Shown here: in pieces, positions 5,139 through 63,675 of the stretch
How positions within the stretch are numbered: position 1 is the stretch's first letter
Layout: every line of letters begins with the position of its first letter
NCBI RefSeq assembly: GCF_016863275.1
Contig: NZ_BOOO01000020.1
Coordinates: forward strand, 186,001-250,000
Direction: 5' to 3'
DNA length: 64,000 nucleotides
Origin: Planotetraspora mira
Lineage (GTDB): Bacteria > Actinomycetota > Actinomycetes > Streptosporangiales > Streptosporangiaceae
Program-made: the position numbers and the translations under genes
Notes under the pieces: generated by a model
What the model saw: only the letters and a program-made list of their open reading frames with translations
Databases searched by the model: none
Told to the model about the DNA's origin: nothing

Positions 5139-5207
5139 TCGATCAATCGTAAACGGATGGTCAACAACCCCCCTTTAACTACCCACTTCACCACCCGCTT
5201 CCCCACC

Positions 5208-5259
5208 GGCCGTCACCACCGGCCGTCACCACCGGCCTTCACCACCGGCCTTCACCACC
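5208..5259. repeat. 13-bp tandem repeat, four copies
   Basis: Four consecutive 13-bp units with pattern GGCC(G/T)TCACCACC: two GGCCGTCACCACC, then two GGCCTTCACCACC, with more degenerate relatives to the left. It lies between the start of the adaptor gene and the first 53-bp repeat array, and abuts the first GTGATCATGCAC core (5263). Simple tandem repeat; no function is evident. Confidence 0.9.
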
Positions 5260-5262
5260 GGC

Positions 5263-5434
5263 GTGATCATGCACAGGTTCGTGATCACGTTGCCTGACCG
5301 GCGCAAACCCCGCCCGTGATCATGCACACTTTCGAAATCTTGCCGTCCTGCCAGGGAAAATACCGATCGTGATCATGCGCGAATTCTGTTTTCATCTACC
5401 GCGACCAGCGCGAACACCTCGCGCGATCATGCAA
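5263..5434 (+). repeat. 53-bp phased intergenic repeat, array 1 (four units)
   Basis: Cores GTGATCATGCAC at 5263-5274 and 5316-5327, GTGATCATGCGC at 5369-5380, and a decayed GCGATCATGCAA at 5423-5434. Start-to-start distances are 53, 53 and 54 bp. Units 1 and 2 continue into (A/T)TTCG; unit 1 has the second conserved box TGACC about 34 bases in, flanked by TTGCC and GGCGCAA, which can form a short stem. The array fills the space between the divergent adaptor gene and the MFS gene and points towards the MFS gene. It is not CRISPR: cores are only 12-19 bp and the intervening bases are themselves conserved between arrays. Confidence 0.9.
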
Positions 5435-5493
5435 TCCGCTCGCCATGCGGACGGCCACCACGTGGTCGCCACTCAGGAAAACCCCTTTGATTA

Positions 5494-5504
5494 GGAAACT
5501 TTCC
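5494..5504. promoter_or_regulatory. Palindrome ahead of the MFS gene, possible operator
   Basis: GGAAACTTTCC is an exact odd-centred palindrome within an A/T-richer stretch (TTAGGAAACTTTCCAAT), 44 bp before the preferred MFS start. TTAGGAAA-TTTCC-type elements occur upstream of many actinomycete genes and are typical of repressor sites, but no cognate regulator is encoded next to it. Called on symmetry and position only. Confidence 0.35.
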
Positions 5505-5548
5505 AATCTGGCATGATGTCCGCGGCGGATCGGACATCAGGGGGCGAA

Positions 5549-6772
5549 GTGGCGCAGGCCGTACAGGCTGTGGGAAAAGAGCAGCGGCTCCCCCTGTGGA
5601 CGAGGGACTTCGCGCTCTACTTCGTCGGCCGGGCCATCTCCATCCTCGGCGACGCGATGTTGCCCGTCGCCGTCTCGCTGGGCGTTCTGGGAGCCGGATA
5701 CGGGTCCACCGGTGTCGGATTCGTCCTCGCCGCGTGGATGGCCCCCATGGGCACCCTCATCCTGTTCGGCGGAGTCTTCGCCGACCGGTTCACCGCTCGG
5801 CGCATGATGATCGGCGCCGACCTGGTGCGAGTCGTCACGCAGTCCGTCATCGCGATCAGCTTCCTTACCGGCAGGCCCTCACTCGTTCTGCTCATCGTGC
5901 TCTCGGCGCTGAGCGGCGCCGCCGCCGCGATGTTCCAGCCGGGCGTGGCGAGCATGGTGCCGCAGATCTCCCGAGACGTGCAGCGGGCCAACGCCACCCT
6001 GCGGGTCGCCGACGCCATCGCCCAACTGTTCGGACCCGCGCTTTCCGGAATCCTGGTGGTCTTCGGCGGCGCGGGCGTCGTCTACGGCGTCAACGCCGGC
6101 ACCTTCGCGGTGAGCGCCGTCTGCATCCTGTCGCTGAGCGTCCGTCCGGTAGCGTCGATCACCGCGGGATCGTCGATGCTCAGAAACCTGCGTGAGGGCT
6201 GGGACGAGTTCCGGTCCCGGACATGGATGTGGGCGGTCATCCTCGTCTGGGCCGTCTACGGCGTGGTGGTCTTCGGCCCCCTCGTGCCCCTCGGAGCCGC
6301 GCTGGTCACCGAAGAACTGGGCAGGTCGGCCTACGGCTGGATGATGTCGGCCGTCGGCGCGGGGACCATTCTTGGCGGCATGATCGCGATGTACGTCAGG
6401 CCTGCCCGGCCGCTTGCCACCGGAGCGATCGTGATGATCGCGTTCTTCCTGGAGCCATTGGTCATCGCCACCCGGATGCCCGCCGGTGTGATGGCGGCCG
6501 GGTTCGCCCTCAGCGGGGCGGCGTGGGCCTTCTGGTCGGTGATGTGGGCCACCAGCATCCAGACCAAGGTCGCTCCGGACGTCCTCAACCGGGTGACGGC
6601 CTACGAGGTCGGGGGCTCGGTCCTCAGCATGCCGATCGGCCAGGCGCTCTCCGGGCCCGTCTCCGAACGGGTCGGAGCCGATCACGTGCTCCTGTTCGGT
6701 TTCGGCGTGGGACTGGCCGGCATCGTCGTCCTGCTGAGCGTGCCCGCGATCCGGAACCTCCGCAGGGCATGA
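5549..6772 (+). CDS. MFS transporter
   Basis: 407 aa from GTG 5549, which has AGGGGG just upstream (5539-5544); an in-frame ATG at 5513 would add 12 residues but has no ribosome site. About twelve hydrophobic helices are visible, with the MFS loop 2-3 motif region GGVFADRFTARRMMIGADL between helices 2 and 3. The overall look is that of the EntS-like MFS exporters common in actinomycetes, where a single polypeptide exports a small molecule by proton antiport. It is followed 45 bp later by proC on the same strand, and the pair is bracketed by inverted 53-bp repeat arrays. Substrate unknown. Confidence 0.88.
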   Translation: MAQAVQAVGKEQRLPLWTRDFALYFVGRAISILGDAMLPVAVSLGVLGAGYGSTGVGFVLAAWMAPMGTLILFGGVFADRFTARRMMIGADLVRVVTQSVIAISFLTGRPSLVLLIVLSALSGAAAAMFQPGVASMVPQISRDVQRANATLRVADAIAQLFGPALSGILVVFGGAGVVYGVNAGTFAVSAVCILSLSVRPVASITAGSSMLRNLREGWDEFRSRTWMWAVILVWAVYGVVVFGPLVPLGAALVTEELGRSAYGWMMSAVGAGTILGGMIAMYVRPARPLATGAIVMIAFFLEPLVIATRMPAGVMAAGFALSGAAWAFWSVMWATSIQTKVAPDVLNRVTAYEVGGSVLSMPIGQALSGPVSERVGADHVLLFGFGVGLAGIVVLLSVPAIRNLRRA

Positions 6773-6817
6773 GCGTCGGTAGGCTGCCAACCGGGTTCTA
6801 GCGGTGAGGACGATGCC

Positions 6818-7612
6818 ATGATCGCGATTCTCGGAACAGGCAAGATGGGCGAGGCCCTCCTGTCCGGACTGGTGCGGGCCGGCCTCCGGCCGCACGAGAT
6901 CACGGCGACCGTCCGGCGCCCGGAACGCGCCGAGGCCCTGCGCGAGCGGTACGGCGTGCGGGTGACCGACAACGCCGAGGCGGTCAAGAGCGCCGAGACC
7001 ATCATCCTCGCGGTCAAACCGCAGGACATGGCGAGCCTGCTCGCCGAGATCGCCCCCCACCTCACTGCGGGCAGCCTGATCATCTCGGTGGCGGCGGGCA
7101 TCACGACCGGCTTCGTCGAGGCGAGGCTCGGCGGCGAGGTGCCCGTCGTCAGGGTCATGTCCAACACCCCCGTGCTGGTCGACGAGGCCATGAGCGTCAT
7201 CTCCGCAGGTGAGCACGCGTCGGAGGCCCACCTCAAGCGAGCCGAGGACCTGCTCTCCCCCGTCGGCAAGGTGCTGCGGATCCCCGAGTCGCAGCAGGAC
7301 GCCGCAACCGCGCTCTCCGGCAGCGGCCCGGCGTATTTCTTCTACCTGGTGGAGGCCATGGTCGACGCCGGCATCCTGCTGGGCATGCCCCGCGCGGCCG
7401 CGCTCGACATGGTCACCCAGTCGATCGTCGGCGCCGCGATCATGCTTCGCGACTCCGGCGAGCACCCGGTGATCCTCCGCGAGGCCGTGACCTCTCCCGG
7501 AGGCACGACGATCGCCGCCATCGCCGAACTGGAGCGTCACAAGGTGCGCGCCGCGTTCCTCGACGCCATCGAGGCGGCTCGCGACCGCAGTCGCCAGCTC
7601 GCCTCCGGCTGA
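6818..7612 (+). CDS. proC: Pyrroline-5-carboxylate reductase
   Basis: 264 aa. The product reduces 1-pyrroline-5-carboxylate to proline with NAD(P)H, the last step of proline synthesis. The N-terminal Rossmann motif is ILGTGKMGEAL (residues 4-14), followed by LAVKPQD, and the C-terminal family signature is AVTSPGGTTIAAI (about 225-237). Length is normal for the family. GAGGA lies about nine bases upstream of the ATG. Gene order acuC / MFS / proC resembles that in streptomycetes. Its 3' end is followed by 53-bp repeat array 2 rather than by an obvious hairpin terminator. Confidence 0.96.
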   Translation: MIAILGTGKMGEALLSGLVRAGLRPHEITATVRRPERAEALRERYGVRVTDNAEAVKSAETIILAVKPQDMASLLAEIAPHLTAGSLIISVAAGITTGFVEARLGGEVPVVRVMSNTPVLVDEAMSVISAGEHASEAHLKRAEDLLSPVGKVLRIPESQQDAATALSGSGPAYFFYLVEAMVDAGILLGMPRAAALDMVTQSIVGAAIMLRDSGEHPVILREAVTSPGGTTIAAIAELERHKVRAAFLDAIEAARDRSRQLASG

Positions 7613-7656
7613 CATCTCGTACGGCTCTCGCGCCCGACTGGGCCTCCTGACCCCTC

Positions 7657-7827
7657 GTGCATGATCACGACAAGAGAATGCCCTGGTCGTACGGCACGGG
7701 CGCGAATCTGTGCATGATCACGCCGGGTATCCGCGCAGGTCATACGACACGATCACGAATCCCTGCATGATCACGCCGAGAGAATGTGCAGGTCATGTGG
7801 CATGAACACGAACCTGTGCATGATCAC
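7657..7827 (-). repeat. 53-bp phased intergenic repeat, array 2 (four units, inverted)
   Basis: Cores, written on the plus strand as GTGCATGATCAC, are at 7657-7668, 7710-7721, 7763-7774 (CTGCATGATCAC) and 7816-7827, exactly 53 bp apart. They point opposite to array 1, so the two arrays form an inverted pair around MFS and proC. Units also share the internal box GCAGGTCAT (minus strand ATGACCTGC) and a CACGAA(T/C)C flank. The array fills the gap between the convergent ends of proC and the ABC-2 permease gene. Confidence 0.92.
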
Positions 7828-7850
7828 GGCCCAGGGGGGAGGGGGGAAAG

Positions 7851-16896: not shown

Positions 16897-18174
16897 ATGT
16901 CCAGGACATCACGAAGTATGCGGGGGCGGTGCGTCGTTCTGGCGGCGGTCACCGCTGGGGTGAGCTGGCTCGCGACCGGTCACGCGATGGCGGACGGCAC
17001 GACCATGACCGATGCCTGCAAGCCGCATAACCAGAGCTCGCCGGCGAACCTGAACACTCTCACTCCGCCAAGCGGAGTGCTCAGCATCGCCGACACCGCA
17101 GGGGCCGCAGCCGCACACGGGTTGCCCTCCATGCCCGGCCGGCCGGCCACCACACCCGACGGCGACACGCCCAAGGGCGGCACCCCCAAGGGGGGCACTG
17201 CCAAGGGCGGCGCAGCGCAGGGCGGGGCTGCCAAGGGCGGCGCAGCGCAGGGCGGCACTGCCAAGGGCGGGGCAGCGCAGGGCGGGACCGCCAAGGACGG
17301 CGCGGCGCAGGGCGGCACTGGCAAGGGCGGCGCGGCGAAGGGTGTTCAGGGTGCCCCGGGCAAGTCCGCCGCAGGCCGCCCGAGGACGCTTCCGGCCCCC
17401 GCGCCCGACGCGTCGACGGTGCTGCCGGCGATGCCGAACAGCAAGAAGGCGGCTCCCGCGGGAGCGCAGACGGCGCCTCAGGCCGTGTCCAAGGCAGTGC
17501 CCGGCGAGATGCCGAACCCGGCTCCGGCGGTGGACGCGGCGCAGTCCGTGGCCAAGCAGGCCGCGACAGGGGCCTCCGCCGCGACCGAGGCGGCCCAGCC
17601 GTCGACGACGGTTCCCATGGTTCCCCTCATGGCCATCGCTCCGGCACGCCCGGGCGTGATGCACCAGGCGTGCACTCCGGTGAAGGCAGCGAACGAGCAC
17701 AACCCCAAGGGCCGTGACTCGGCCGCGGACGGGCGTGGAAAGAACGACAAGTCGTCATCCCGTTCGGGCGCCGAGTTCCTCCCGGCTCATCCCCACGGCC
17801 GTCCCCACCACAAGGCGCCGTCGGCCGTCATCCAGCCGGGGGACAAGCAGCACGGCGGACAGAACGCGATGACACCCGCCGGCCCGGGCCGTCCGGCTCA
17901 CCCGAACTCCGGCGCCCAGGAGGCCGCCGGAGCCAAGGGCAAGCAGGCCGATCAGGGACGCGCACAGGGCCACCGGCGCCACGACGCGGACGCCAAGACC
18001 CGGTCCACGGAGGGCTCCAACACACGGACCGGCGTGGTGCACCCGAAGGCGCCGGCACACCCGAACGGCGCCGTACCGAACGATCTCACCGCCCCCGCTC
18101 TGGCCAAGGCCGCGGACACGCGCTCGGTGACCAGGCTCGCGAACAACGCGACCGACAGCACGATCCTGCCCTGA
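16897..18174 (+). CDS. Secreted low-complexity protein with pentapeptide repeats
   Basis: 425 aa. A signal peptide (positive MSRTSRSMRGR, hydrophobic VVLAAVTAGVSWLATG, cleavage near AMA-DG) is followed by a Pro/Ala/Lys/Gly-rich chain with no recognisable catalytic domain. Residues about 91-150 are twelve tandem five-residue units of the form (T/A)(P/A/G)(K/Q)GG. Two isolated Cys flank the central region (KPHNQ and TPVKA neighbourhoods). The composition suggests an extended cell-wall or matrix protein. GGGGG lies just upstream of the start. Codon usage is normal for the window, so this is a real gene; its function is unknown. Confidence 0.75.
   Translation: MSRTSRSMRGRCVVLAAVTAGVSWLATGHAMADGTTMTDACKPHNQSSPANLNTLTPPSGVLSIADTAGAAAAHGLPSMPGRPATTPDGDTPKGGTPKGGTAKGGAAQGGAAKGGAAQGGTAKGGAAQGGTAKDGAAQGGTGKGGAAKGVQGAPGKSAAGRPRTLPAPAPDASTVLPAMPNSKKAAPAGAQTAPQAVSKAVPGEMPNPAPAVDAAQSVAKQAATGASAATEAAQPSTTVPMVPLMAIAPARPGVMHQACTPVKAANEHNPKGRDSAADGRGKNDKSSSRSGAEFLPAHPHGRPHHKAPSAVIQPGDKQHGGQNAMTPAGPGRPAHPNSGAQEAAGAKGKQADQGRAQGHRRHDADAKTRSTEGSNTRTGVVHPKAPAHPNGAVPNDLTAPALAKAADTRSVTRLANNATDSTILP
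17167..17346 (+). repeat. 15-bp in-frame tandem repeat, twelve units
   Basis: Twelve consecutive 15-bp units encode TPKGG, TPKGG, TAKGG, AAQGG, AAKGG, AAQGG, TAKGG, AAQGG, TAKDG, AAQGG, TGKGG and AAKGV. The alternating K and Q units imply that a 30-bp double unit was itself duplicated. Copy number is likely to vary between strains. Confidence 0.92.
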
Positions 18175-56216: not shown

Positions 56217-56306
56217 GAAGAGAAAGCAGGCGACCCCCGCTGGGGGGGAGAGCGGGGGTCGCCAACCGGTCCGGCTCTGGGGGGGTAGAGCCGGCTCCGT
56301 ATTAGA
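56217..56306 (-). ncRNA. 6C small RNA
   Basis: On the minus strand, two adjacent perfect hairpins carry C-rich loops: stem CCGGCTCT / AGAGCCGG (56271-56294) with loop ACCCCCCC, and stem GCGACCCCCGCT / AGCGGGGGTCGC (56230-56262) with loop CTCCCCCCC. Two hairpins with runs of C in both loops define the actinobacterial 6C family, and the position just upstream of ssd matches M. tuberculosis (B11, beside Rv3660c). A U-rich tail (CTGCTTTCTCTTCC) follows the second hairpin. C-rich loops can base-pair with G-rich ribosome sites of target mRNAs. The ends are approximate; size about 90 nt. Confidence 0.8.
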
Positions 56307-62721: not shown

Positions 62722-62747
62722 CCCCCAAGCCCCGCTCCCCCTTGGGC

Positions 62748-62918
62748 GTGATCATGCACAAGTTCGTGGAAAGGCCACCTGACCTGGCCACTCTCCGATC
62801 GTGATCATGCACAGGTTCGGCAAGTGCCGTCCCGACCTGCGAAAACCCCCTCCGTGATCATGCAAGAGTTCTCGATCAATAACCATGAGCAGGCTGAACA
62901 CTGTTCGTGATCATGCGA
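62748..62918 (+). repeat. 53-bp phased intergenic repeat, array 3 (four units)
   Basis: Cores at 62748-62759, 62801-62812, 62854-62865 (GTGATCATGCAA) and 62907-62918 (GTGATCATGCGA), exactly 53 bp apart. Units 1 and 2 continue A(A/G)GTTCG and carry the second box, CTGACCTGG or CGACCTGCG. The last core overlaps the region just upstream of the DUF309 ribosome site (GGAG 62922-62925). It points towards the DUF309 gene and is the mirror image of array 4 beyond that gene. Confidence 0.92.
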
Positions 62919-63426: not shown

Positions 63427-63650
63427 CCGCATGATCACGCATCGGGTCCGGCCAGGTCAGGCCGGGGACGGCCGAATCCGTGCATGATCACGAATGGCGC
63501 CTTCGCAGGTCATGCGGCATTTTCCCGAAACCGCGCATGATCACGGAGGGGGTTTTCGCAGGTCGGGACGGCAATCGCCGAACCTGTGCATGATCACGCC
63601 CAAAGGGTGGCCAGGTCAGGCCACCTTTCCACGAACCTGTGCATGATCAC
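63427..63650 (-). repeat. 53-bp phased intergenic repeat, array 4 (five units, inverted)
   Basis: Plus-strand cores (C/G)(C/T/G)GCATGATCAC at 63427-63438, 63480-63491, 63533-63544, 63586-63597 and 63639-63650, exactly 53 bp apart. Read on the minus strand, units are arranged in the same order as in array 3: the second unit differs from the second unit of array 3 at only two of 53 positions. Stems around the TGACCT box are strong here (GGTGGCC / GGCCACC; CCGGCC / GGCCGG). Confidence 0.95.
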
Positions 63651-63675
63651 GCCTGACGACGTCACGCCTGAGGGG

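Follow-up and report, generated by a model that had tools for sequence, protein, structure and literature searches.

Phased 53-bp intergenic arrays in Planotetraspora mira as candidate docking sites for a DNA-binding protein at gene ends

To characterize a family of regularly spaced intergenic repeats, we analyzed 64,000 nucleotides from Planotetraspora mira (contig NZ_BOOO01000020.1, positions 186,001 to 250,000; hereafter, the window). The window contains four arrays of a 12-bp core (Table 1). Array 1 is a single array that lies in the divergent intergenic region between the HlyD and MFS genes. Array 2 is also single; proC on one side and an ABC-2 permease gene on the other have their 3′ ends toward it. 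Arrays 3 and 4 begin 26 nt past the stop codon of an alpha/beta-hydrolase gene and 25 nt past that of a trypsin-like gene, respectively, and their second units are 95% identical outside the core. A preliminary description, made from the sequence of the first two arrays, had reported core-to-core distances of 53, 53, and 54 bp and of 53, 53, and 53 bp, which we confirmed. It had also counted four copies of the core in each array, which holds if one or two mismatches are allowed. Only two cores of array 1 match GTGATCATGCAC exactly, with one mismatch in another and two in the last; array 2 has three exact cores and one with a single mismatch. Across the window, there were 26 core matches with at most 2 mismatches, compared to 4.3 expected. 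Same-strand cores were 52 to 54 bp apart in 13 pairs, compared to none in each of 200 shuffles (200-bp blocks).

Table 1. Coordinates of the repeat arrays and their leaders in the window
Feature	Position	Strand	Description
Array 1	5263..5434	+	Three full units and terminal core; cores at 5263, 5316, 5369, 5423
Array 2	7657..7827	-	Three full units and terminal core; cores at 7657, 7710, 7763, 7816
C-rich leader of array 2	7828..7850	-	From permease stop codon to first core
C-rich leader of array 3	62722..62747	+	
Array 3 (+ arm of pair)	62748..62918	+	53-bp spacing
Array 4 (- arm, paired with array 3)	63427..63650	-	Four full units and terminal core, 53-bp spacing
Leader of array 4	63651..63675	-	

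Each unit consists of the 12-bp core followed by 41 bp that contain two conserved boxes. The box GACC(T/A)G at +33 to +38 corresponds to a second box that had been recognized in the preliminary description, to which we add TTCG at +15 to +18. Based on 138 full units from G000, the genome to which the window belongs (9.03 Mb, 100 contigs), the consensus is GTGATCATGCACAg.TTCGg.ga.a.gcc..ctGACCtGcgc..ac.cc...C. The final core of an array is a bare GTGATCATGCA from which the boxes are missing (43 last cores, G000). Most arrays have three to four full units that are closed by the bare core, with four cores in 18 and five cores in 17 of 43 arrays in G000, and they occur singly or as head-to-head pairs. 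Outside the core, adjacent units of an array have a mean identity of 47% (78 comparisons, counting terminal ones). In some units, an additional core lies at +18 (18 + 35 = 53), as seen in G000 at C1:270395, C22:149386, and C33:119819 and similarly in the congener G003; the unit consensus around +18 resembles a weak copy of the core.

The arrays are abundant and their spacing is nearly invariant. Searching G000 with up to one mismatch recovered 1016 cores (502 + 514), while a reversed-pattern control yielded 5 (2 + 3). Pairs of the form GTGATCATGCAC-N38-42-TGATCATG, in which cores are 49 to 53 bp apart, numbered 499 (249 + 250) with none on either strand for the control (0 + 0). At about four cores per array, we estimate that there are around 250 arrays in this genome. 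We then read 849 kb of G000 (9.4%), comprising the window, most of contigs C1 and C2, and parts of C4, which together hold 43 arrays of at least two cores. Neighboring cores were separated by exactly 53 bp in 138 of 146 cases, and the remaining distances were 21 (three), 55 (two), 52 (two), and 54 bp (one). All 111 exact cores were within arrays, and only one of them fell within a called gene. The same spacing predominated in stretches of other Planotetraspora genomes (G001 to G004), with 53 bp in 31/34 distances of G001, 35/38 of G003, and 42/47 of G004. In G062, a genome from outside the genus, the distance was 53 bp in 50 and 52 bp in 21 of 80 cases. The period of 53 bp (52 to 53 bp in G062) is approximately five turns of 10.5 bp. 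Thus, two expectations of the preliminary description, enrichment at 53 bp and presence of the motif in related genomes, agree with what we found: arrays were present in all five Planotetraspora genomes examined.

Arrays tend to follow genes. In G000, 29 of 43 arrays have the 3′ end of a same-strand gene on their 5′ side. Among these 29 arrays, 19 begin 11 to 28 nt past the stop codon, and another 6 use the core's own TGA as the stop codon. The 30 array-bearing regions of this genome are tandem (16), convergent (11), or divergent (3), compared to 488, 132, and 133, respectively, for all called neighboring gene pairs. Convergent regions are therefore overrepresented (37% versus 18%), while the share of divergent ones (10% versus 18%) rests on three regions and is too small to judge. 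Genes were called with a small custom script, so individual distances could be inaccurate wherever the script overlooked a start or stop codon. The leader between the stop codon and the first core is rich in cytosine (56% C in 1034 nt pooled from five genomes), compared to 38% after other stop codons (12480 nt). At one locus, the last core of array 3 (62907-62918) ends 12 nt 5′ of the position (62931) at which the DUF309 gene probably starts, so that the array extends into the ribosome-binding region. With two further arrays in the window and hundreds across the genome, mainly at gene 3′ ends, the scale of the phenomenon exceeds what had first been described.

While 17 of the 30 array-bearing regions in G000 contain a single array, others contain two, which we counted as pairs when up to 1200 bp apart. 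The order was + then - with cores facing inward in 38 of 40 two-array regions (five genomes, some regions orthologous), and the reversed order was seen once in G004 and once in G062. Inner cores were 8 to 56 bp apart in 32 of 39 pairs, most often by 11 bp (8/39), followed by 27 bp (5) and 33 bp (4). The arms at C1:22285 and 22526, whose inner cores overlap in the chain, were tallied as single arrays in the hairpin analysis. A genome-wide search for tight pair centers found 27 in G000, 45 in G004, 54 in G062, 37 in G086, and 12 in G182, but 0 in the control. Similarity was higher between the two arms of one pair than between arms taken from separate pairs (best unit identity of 0.69 versus 0.59), and 33% of 39 pairs exceeded the 95th percentile of the arm-similarity control. 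In five long-gap pairs, the enclosed genes, which have Pfam names only for the two window pairs, showed no evident relation, which gives no support to the idea that the binding protein is encoded between the arms.

These observations bear on the inverted placement of arrays 1 and 2 around MFS-proC, which the preliminary description had cited in support of binding sites or a nucleoid or insulator element. We do not regard the two arrays as a designed pair. Paired arms usually lie side by side, and arrays 1 and 2 have separate histories. Three of four congeners (G001, G002, and G004) lack array 2, whereas G003 has it, as does P. silvatica (L109), which is probably conspecific with G003. Gain in one lineage is the simplest explanation. 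ProC of G000 is 98% identical to its P. silvatica counterpart, with all remaining loci listed at 89% or below, although records very close to G000 may be missing from that list. In array 1, the number of full units ahead of the terminal core rises from one (G002) through two (G001) and three (G000) to four (G003), and there is no array before MFS in G004. Abutting the first core of array 1 in the window, at 5186-5262, are six copies of a C-rich 13-bp tandem repeat (CTTCACCACCGGC), which was not seen at the corresponding place in G003. In Microtetraspora glauca and G062, HlyD, MFS, and proC share one strand (in M. glauca, the ABC genes also); compared to these two genomes, the MFS-proC block itself (5570-7612) is inverted in the window. 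At another locus, a small gene that lies between single cores is inverted in G002. It is plausible that these inversions were caused by recombination between inverted arrays.

Turnover was also evident elsewhere. Unit numbers differ among orthologous arrays, and some neighboring units are identical (e.g., G001 C1:150746-150860). At one further locus, G002 is without the arrays that are common to G000, G001, and G003. In G062, a 28-base center (0 to 7 mismatches) along with similar arms was common to 17 of 22 loci tested, which we read as a subfamily, about 300 bp long, that has probably been amplified. There are 12 places in this genome with an end motif (CTAGRNNNCCGGNCANG), including C1:580491 and C24:83304; the 10 that were checked are at 8 subfamily elements, often at TAG stop codons. 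It may mark the end of a mobile unit, but the count of 12 says little, as the reversed pattern gives 8 places.

Despite this turnover, cores are strongly constrained where arrays are retained. We tried ten regions against orthologous stretches, of which seven were usable with G003, five with G001, and three with G002; for the rest, the available stretches contained no anchor. Between G000 and G003, differences amounted to 14.6% in the segments and 4.7% in flanking coding DNA but 0.5% in the core (400 sites), a value that the aligner may have lowered by pairing a core with a neighboring nonorthologous core. For G001, the corresponding values were 36.8%, 8.6%, and 1.2% (250 core sites). Gapped core sites numbered 40/440 for G003 and 80/330 for G001. 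Compared to flanking coding DNA, divergence in the cores of orthologous copies is thus lower by a factor of seven to nine. The outcome was the same when 38 units of G000 and G003 were matched by their segments alone: differences were 1.1% at core bases 0-9, 4.6% in TTCG, and 7.5% in GACCTG, while bases 10-14 differed by 17 to 25% and all other positions by 14 to 16%. In the three regions usable with G002, arrays were mostly absent rather than decayed (130/150 core sites gapped).

We found that the arrays have a narrow distribution and that their cores are lineage specific. Of 150 genomes of the family, 6 contained three consecutive cores, representing 2 of 68 genera. With one core base freed, 13 of 297 genomes of the order matched, representing 4 of 62 genera: five Planotetraspora, G062, two g34, and five g65, one of which had a single match. 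Genomes with other core variants could escape these search patterns. Related arrays with lineage-specific cores exist in three genera beyond Planotetraspora. Cores of the form GTGATCTTGCA also occur 53 bp apart at a contig edge of Sphaerimonospora thailandensis (L107). The core is GTGATCATGCACAGGTTCG in most Planotetraspora, GTGATCATGCAGAAGTTCG in G004, and ends in TTCCCG in G062; as read by eye from a listing, it is GTGATCTTGCAGTTTGTCGCA in g65 and GTGATCTTGCAGAAACTCGCA in g34. The GACCTG box is common to lineages with different cores. Core position 11 illustrates the shift within the genus, being C in 93% of 138 units of G000 and G in 95% of 42 units of G004. The latter genome has 458 TGATCATG triples, yet 16 pairs with a GCAC core. 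Arrays were not observed in the 140 kb read of G139, which belongs to g65 like the array-bearing G182, or in 100 kb of G097.

To place the arrays among known repeats, we compared them with published systems. The preliminary description had stated that no described family matches. This was too strong, because the STAR elements of Staphylococcus share the design, though with another sequence (PMC3532100). STAR elements are interspersed intergenic direct repeats, in which a 14-bp repeat alternates with variable spacers of 40 to 44 bp. The loci studied have 1 to 7 repeats each; the last spacer is distinct, and spacers are locus and lineage specific. STAR elements undergo both expansion and contraction, and their function was reported as unknown (PMC3532100). 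With a short core, a recurring spacer, and direct repeats, STAR is the closest design to the 53-bp arrays, which likewise combine a short intergenic core (12 bp) with a recurring spacer of at least 40 bp (41 bp). However, the 53-bp arrays differ in their nearly constant spacing, frequent head-to-head arms, location mainly at gene 3′ ends, and lineage-varying cores. The STAR core T(G/A/T)TGTTG(G/T)GGCCC(C/A) had no exact match in the 290 loci examined, and the window contained one match at 2 mismatches, compared to 2.2 expected. We file the arrays as interspersed intergenic direct-repeat arrays, a known general kind with a different sequence.

Other families were more distant. Repetitive extragenic palindromes (REP) and bacterial interspersed mosaic elements (BIME) are numerous outside genes, where most of them lie between genes that are convergent or unidirectional. 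Their termini often provide a stop codon, and they show inverted pairing and protein binding (PMC3733652, PMC2817692). The arrays share the high copy number (1016 cores in G000), the stop-codon overlap, and the placement, with 27 of 30 array-bearing regions in the 849 kb being tandem or convergent. In contrast to REP and BIME, the arrays consist of regular five-turn tandem units, lack a constant tag (GTAG in 4/138 and CGTC in 26/138 units), and show no covariation at the candidate stem. The Y1 transposase domain of the REP-associated tyrosine transposase (RAYT) type (PF01797, E ≤ 1e-5) was not found in array-bearing G000, G001, G002, G003, G062, G182, and G223; it was found in array-bearing G004, G037, G086, G120, and G183 and in 5 of 14 control genomes. 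Based on tag, stem, and PF01797, we rejected membership in the REP/RAYT system. Among actinobacteria, intergenic tandem repeats known as mycobacterial interspersed repetitive units (MIRU) include a 53-bp type, which is a single unit following copies of a 77-bp unit at one locus (PMC2453075); our comparison with MIRU was by description. BrickBuilt, from Porphyromonas gingivalis, is a dispersed miniature inverted-repeat transposable element (MITE) with an internal minisatellite, i.e., tandem repeats between inverted-repeat ends (PMC4596501). It differs in having spacer-less 23-nt repeats, 19 listed loci, and, in some copies, terminal inverted repeats that resemble the IS5 family (PMC4596501). 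A CRISPR array was rejected because the segments share boxes and positions across loci, unlike unrelated spacers. Among the results listed in searches of open-licence papers, there was no description of these 53-bp arrays.

We propose that the dispersed extragenic elements are docking arrays for a putative clade-specific DNA-binding protein, which would act as a boundary at gene ends. Judging from sequence comparisons, we give this reading a probability of roughly one half. Core constraint, a spacing of 52 to 53 bp that persists despite segment divergence, dependencies between adjacent bases, and lineage-specific cores all suggest sites for a sequence-specific protein. In this respect, the preliminary description of binding sites at five helical turns gains support, but the protein itself and the insulator or nucleoid role that it invoked go beyond the evidence. 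Each 53-bp unit would offer the core and two helper boxes. Because neighboring units are five helical turns apart, several protein molecules could be arranged along the same side of the helix, probably in mutual contact, with the bare core ending the row. The full element would then be two head-to-head rows about a short dyad. Behind stop codons and between transcription units, such a nucleoprotein patch could constitute a boundary that pins or bridges the chromosome locally and curbs the spill-over of transcription or supercoiling into the adjacent gene, similar to proposals for BIME. That the sites have a function maintained by selection is probable; a boundary role at gene ends specifically is more doubtful. 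A tentative extension, which we consider somewhat less likely than not, is a clade-specific chromosome-boundary code. Here, one dedicated protein would occupy hundreds of helically phased arrays of 53-bp units, most of them at gene ends, with recognition sequence and sites changing together between lineages and element copies being seeded at new gene ends over time.

Several results weigh against this proposal. For 14 of 43 arrays, there is no same-strand gene end on the 5′ side, and the 3 divergent regions among the 30 with arrays include that of array 1. The adjoining genes are ordinary and diverse, as judged from 16 scanned proteins (TPP enzyme, EIIA-man, Smr, ArsR-type regulator, solute-binding protein, lumazine synthase, [2Fe-2S] protein, DAHP synthase, NlpC/P60, DUF309, hydrolase, trypsin-like protein, HlyD, MFS, ProC, and ABC permease), which on C1 cover 9 of the 14 upstream genes listed. 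Core pairs in G002 (62 + 44) are about a fifth of those in G000, G001, and G003 (239-299 + 247-266), which indicates that the arrays are not indispensable. Strong hairpins occur 3′ of the last core of single arrays at a frequency of 0.40 (of 40), compared to 0.46 after other stop codons (of 444). With frequencies about equal, there is no sign of arrays replacing terminators, and that candidate function is unsupported. Short distances between extra cores have a weak helical phase (R = 0.24 at 10.5 bp, 94 distances), where P is about 0.005, uncorrected and from distances that are not independent, after 30 rows were dropped as sub-distances (18+35 or 19+34) of the 53-bp unit. We found no binding protein, having made no systematic search for one. 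Last, copying between loci and the gain of array 2 would fit a mobile element as well.

The main rival is accordingly mobility. Here, the elements would be MITE-like, with inverted arms serving as multisite transposase-binding ends that a putative transposase mobilizes in trans. Conservation would reflect recognition by the transposase, and gene ends would be the safest landing places. We consider this unlikely, but it accounts for head-to-head arms made of several like sites, for the gain of array 2 in the lineage of G000 and G003, and for the amplified subfamily of G062 with its end motif. That motif was seen only in the G062 subfamily, usually on one side. In Planotetraspora, leaders are heterogeneous in both size and sequence; inspection by eye revealed neither a constant terminal inverted repeat nor, at the one empty site compared (array 2), a clear target duplication. 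Moreover, stationary copies of a mobile element should drift evenly, which is at odds with the low divergence of orthologous cores, and single arrays are common. The Y1 transposase was not found in 7 of 12 array-bearing genomes at the threshold given above, and other transposase families were not searched for. Functionless satellite or variable-number tandem-repeat DNA, whose regularity would come from tandem duplication alone, could explain why unit numbers vary among orthologous arrays and why some adjacent units are identical. Yet adjacent units mostly share little outside a fixed core, and spacing is retained across genera despite the divergence of segments. This reading is already disfavored, and we regard it as highly improbable.

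Alternatively, the arrays could be read from the transcript, as RNA elements of 3′ untranslated regions that affect stability, decay, or Rho-type termination. Location and orientation directly past stop codons are what such elements would show, and the C-rich leaders are in keeping with them. Folding z-scores for the first 150 nt of 12 arrays, which ranged from +0.8 to -3.0 and were negative in 10, also lean toward RNA and away from our proposal. Even so, we judge this alternative to be quite improbable. A candidate stem within the unit (GCACAGGTTCG / CGACCTGCGC) showed no covariation among 203 distinct units from G000, G001, and G003. Its pairing frequencies were those that independent columns predict, and we rejected this hairpin. 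In the same units, the nine strongest of 25 listed column dependencies involved adjacent bases, while weaker distant ones (e.g., 4-34 and 7-34) rest on few units. Pairing between cores would be possible in Planotetraspora, where the self-pairing run is 9, but it is lost with core GTGATCTTGC, where the run is 4. Thus, pairing is not the property that was conserved across genera. In G004, the first box is altered while the second remains GACCtG. Furthermore, 7 of 16 tandem regions in G000 carry + and - arms, and the antisense arms between tandem genes retain their cores, with 0 to 1 mismatch per core in three pairs on C1. Strong local hairpins are also less frequent within arrays (13% of 117) than they are in coding DNA (32% of 213). 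Given the lack of stem covariation, the absence of self-pairing in genera with GTGATCTTGC, and the intact antisense cores, we read the arrays as double-stranded DNA sites, and sequence-specific recognition of the double strand is very likely in light of these patterns.

What sets the arrays apart is a near-invariant motif that is present in about a thousand copies at fixed helical turns, and that has changed genome-wide to a different sequence in related species. Together, core constraint, some 1000 phased copies, and lineage-changed sequence imply a strong trans-acting partner. If it is a protein, the partner would provide a tractable case of gene-end marking or chromosome organization in bacteria, as well as of coordinated change between a binding protein and its hundreds of sites. 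It could also offer a handle on the function of STAR elements.

Additional comparisons concerned the origin of the arrays and other features of the window. Array 2 had no match in a plasmid collection and array 4 had none in a phage collection (E 0.01). A scan of viral contigs returned 52 stretches with the two-core pattern. We inspected the 10 that have exact GTGATC[AT]TGC pairs at 52 to 54 bp and found the unit in none of them; the other 42 were not individually inspected. An origin from phage, plasmid, or virus thus has no supporting match in these comparisons. When the window was scanned against Rfam, the arrays were without a match, and the gathering score was reached only by a 6C RNA (RF01066) at 56225-56300 on the - strand (E = 0.00012). 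Finally, the window contains a long 15/30-bp tandem repeat at 17171-17342, with 85% matches at period 30.

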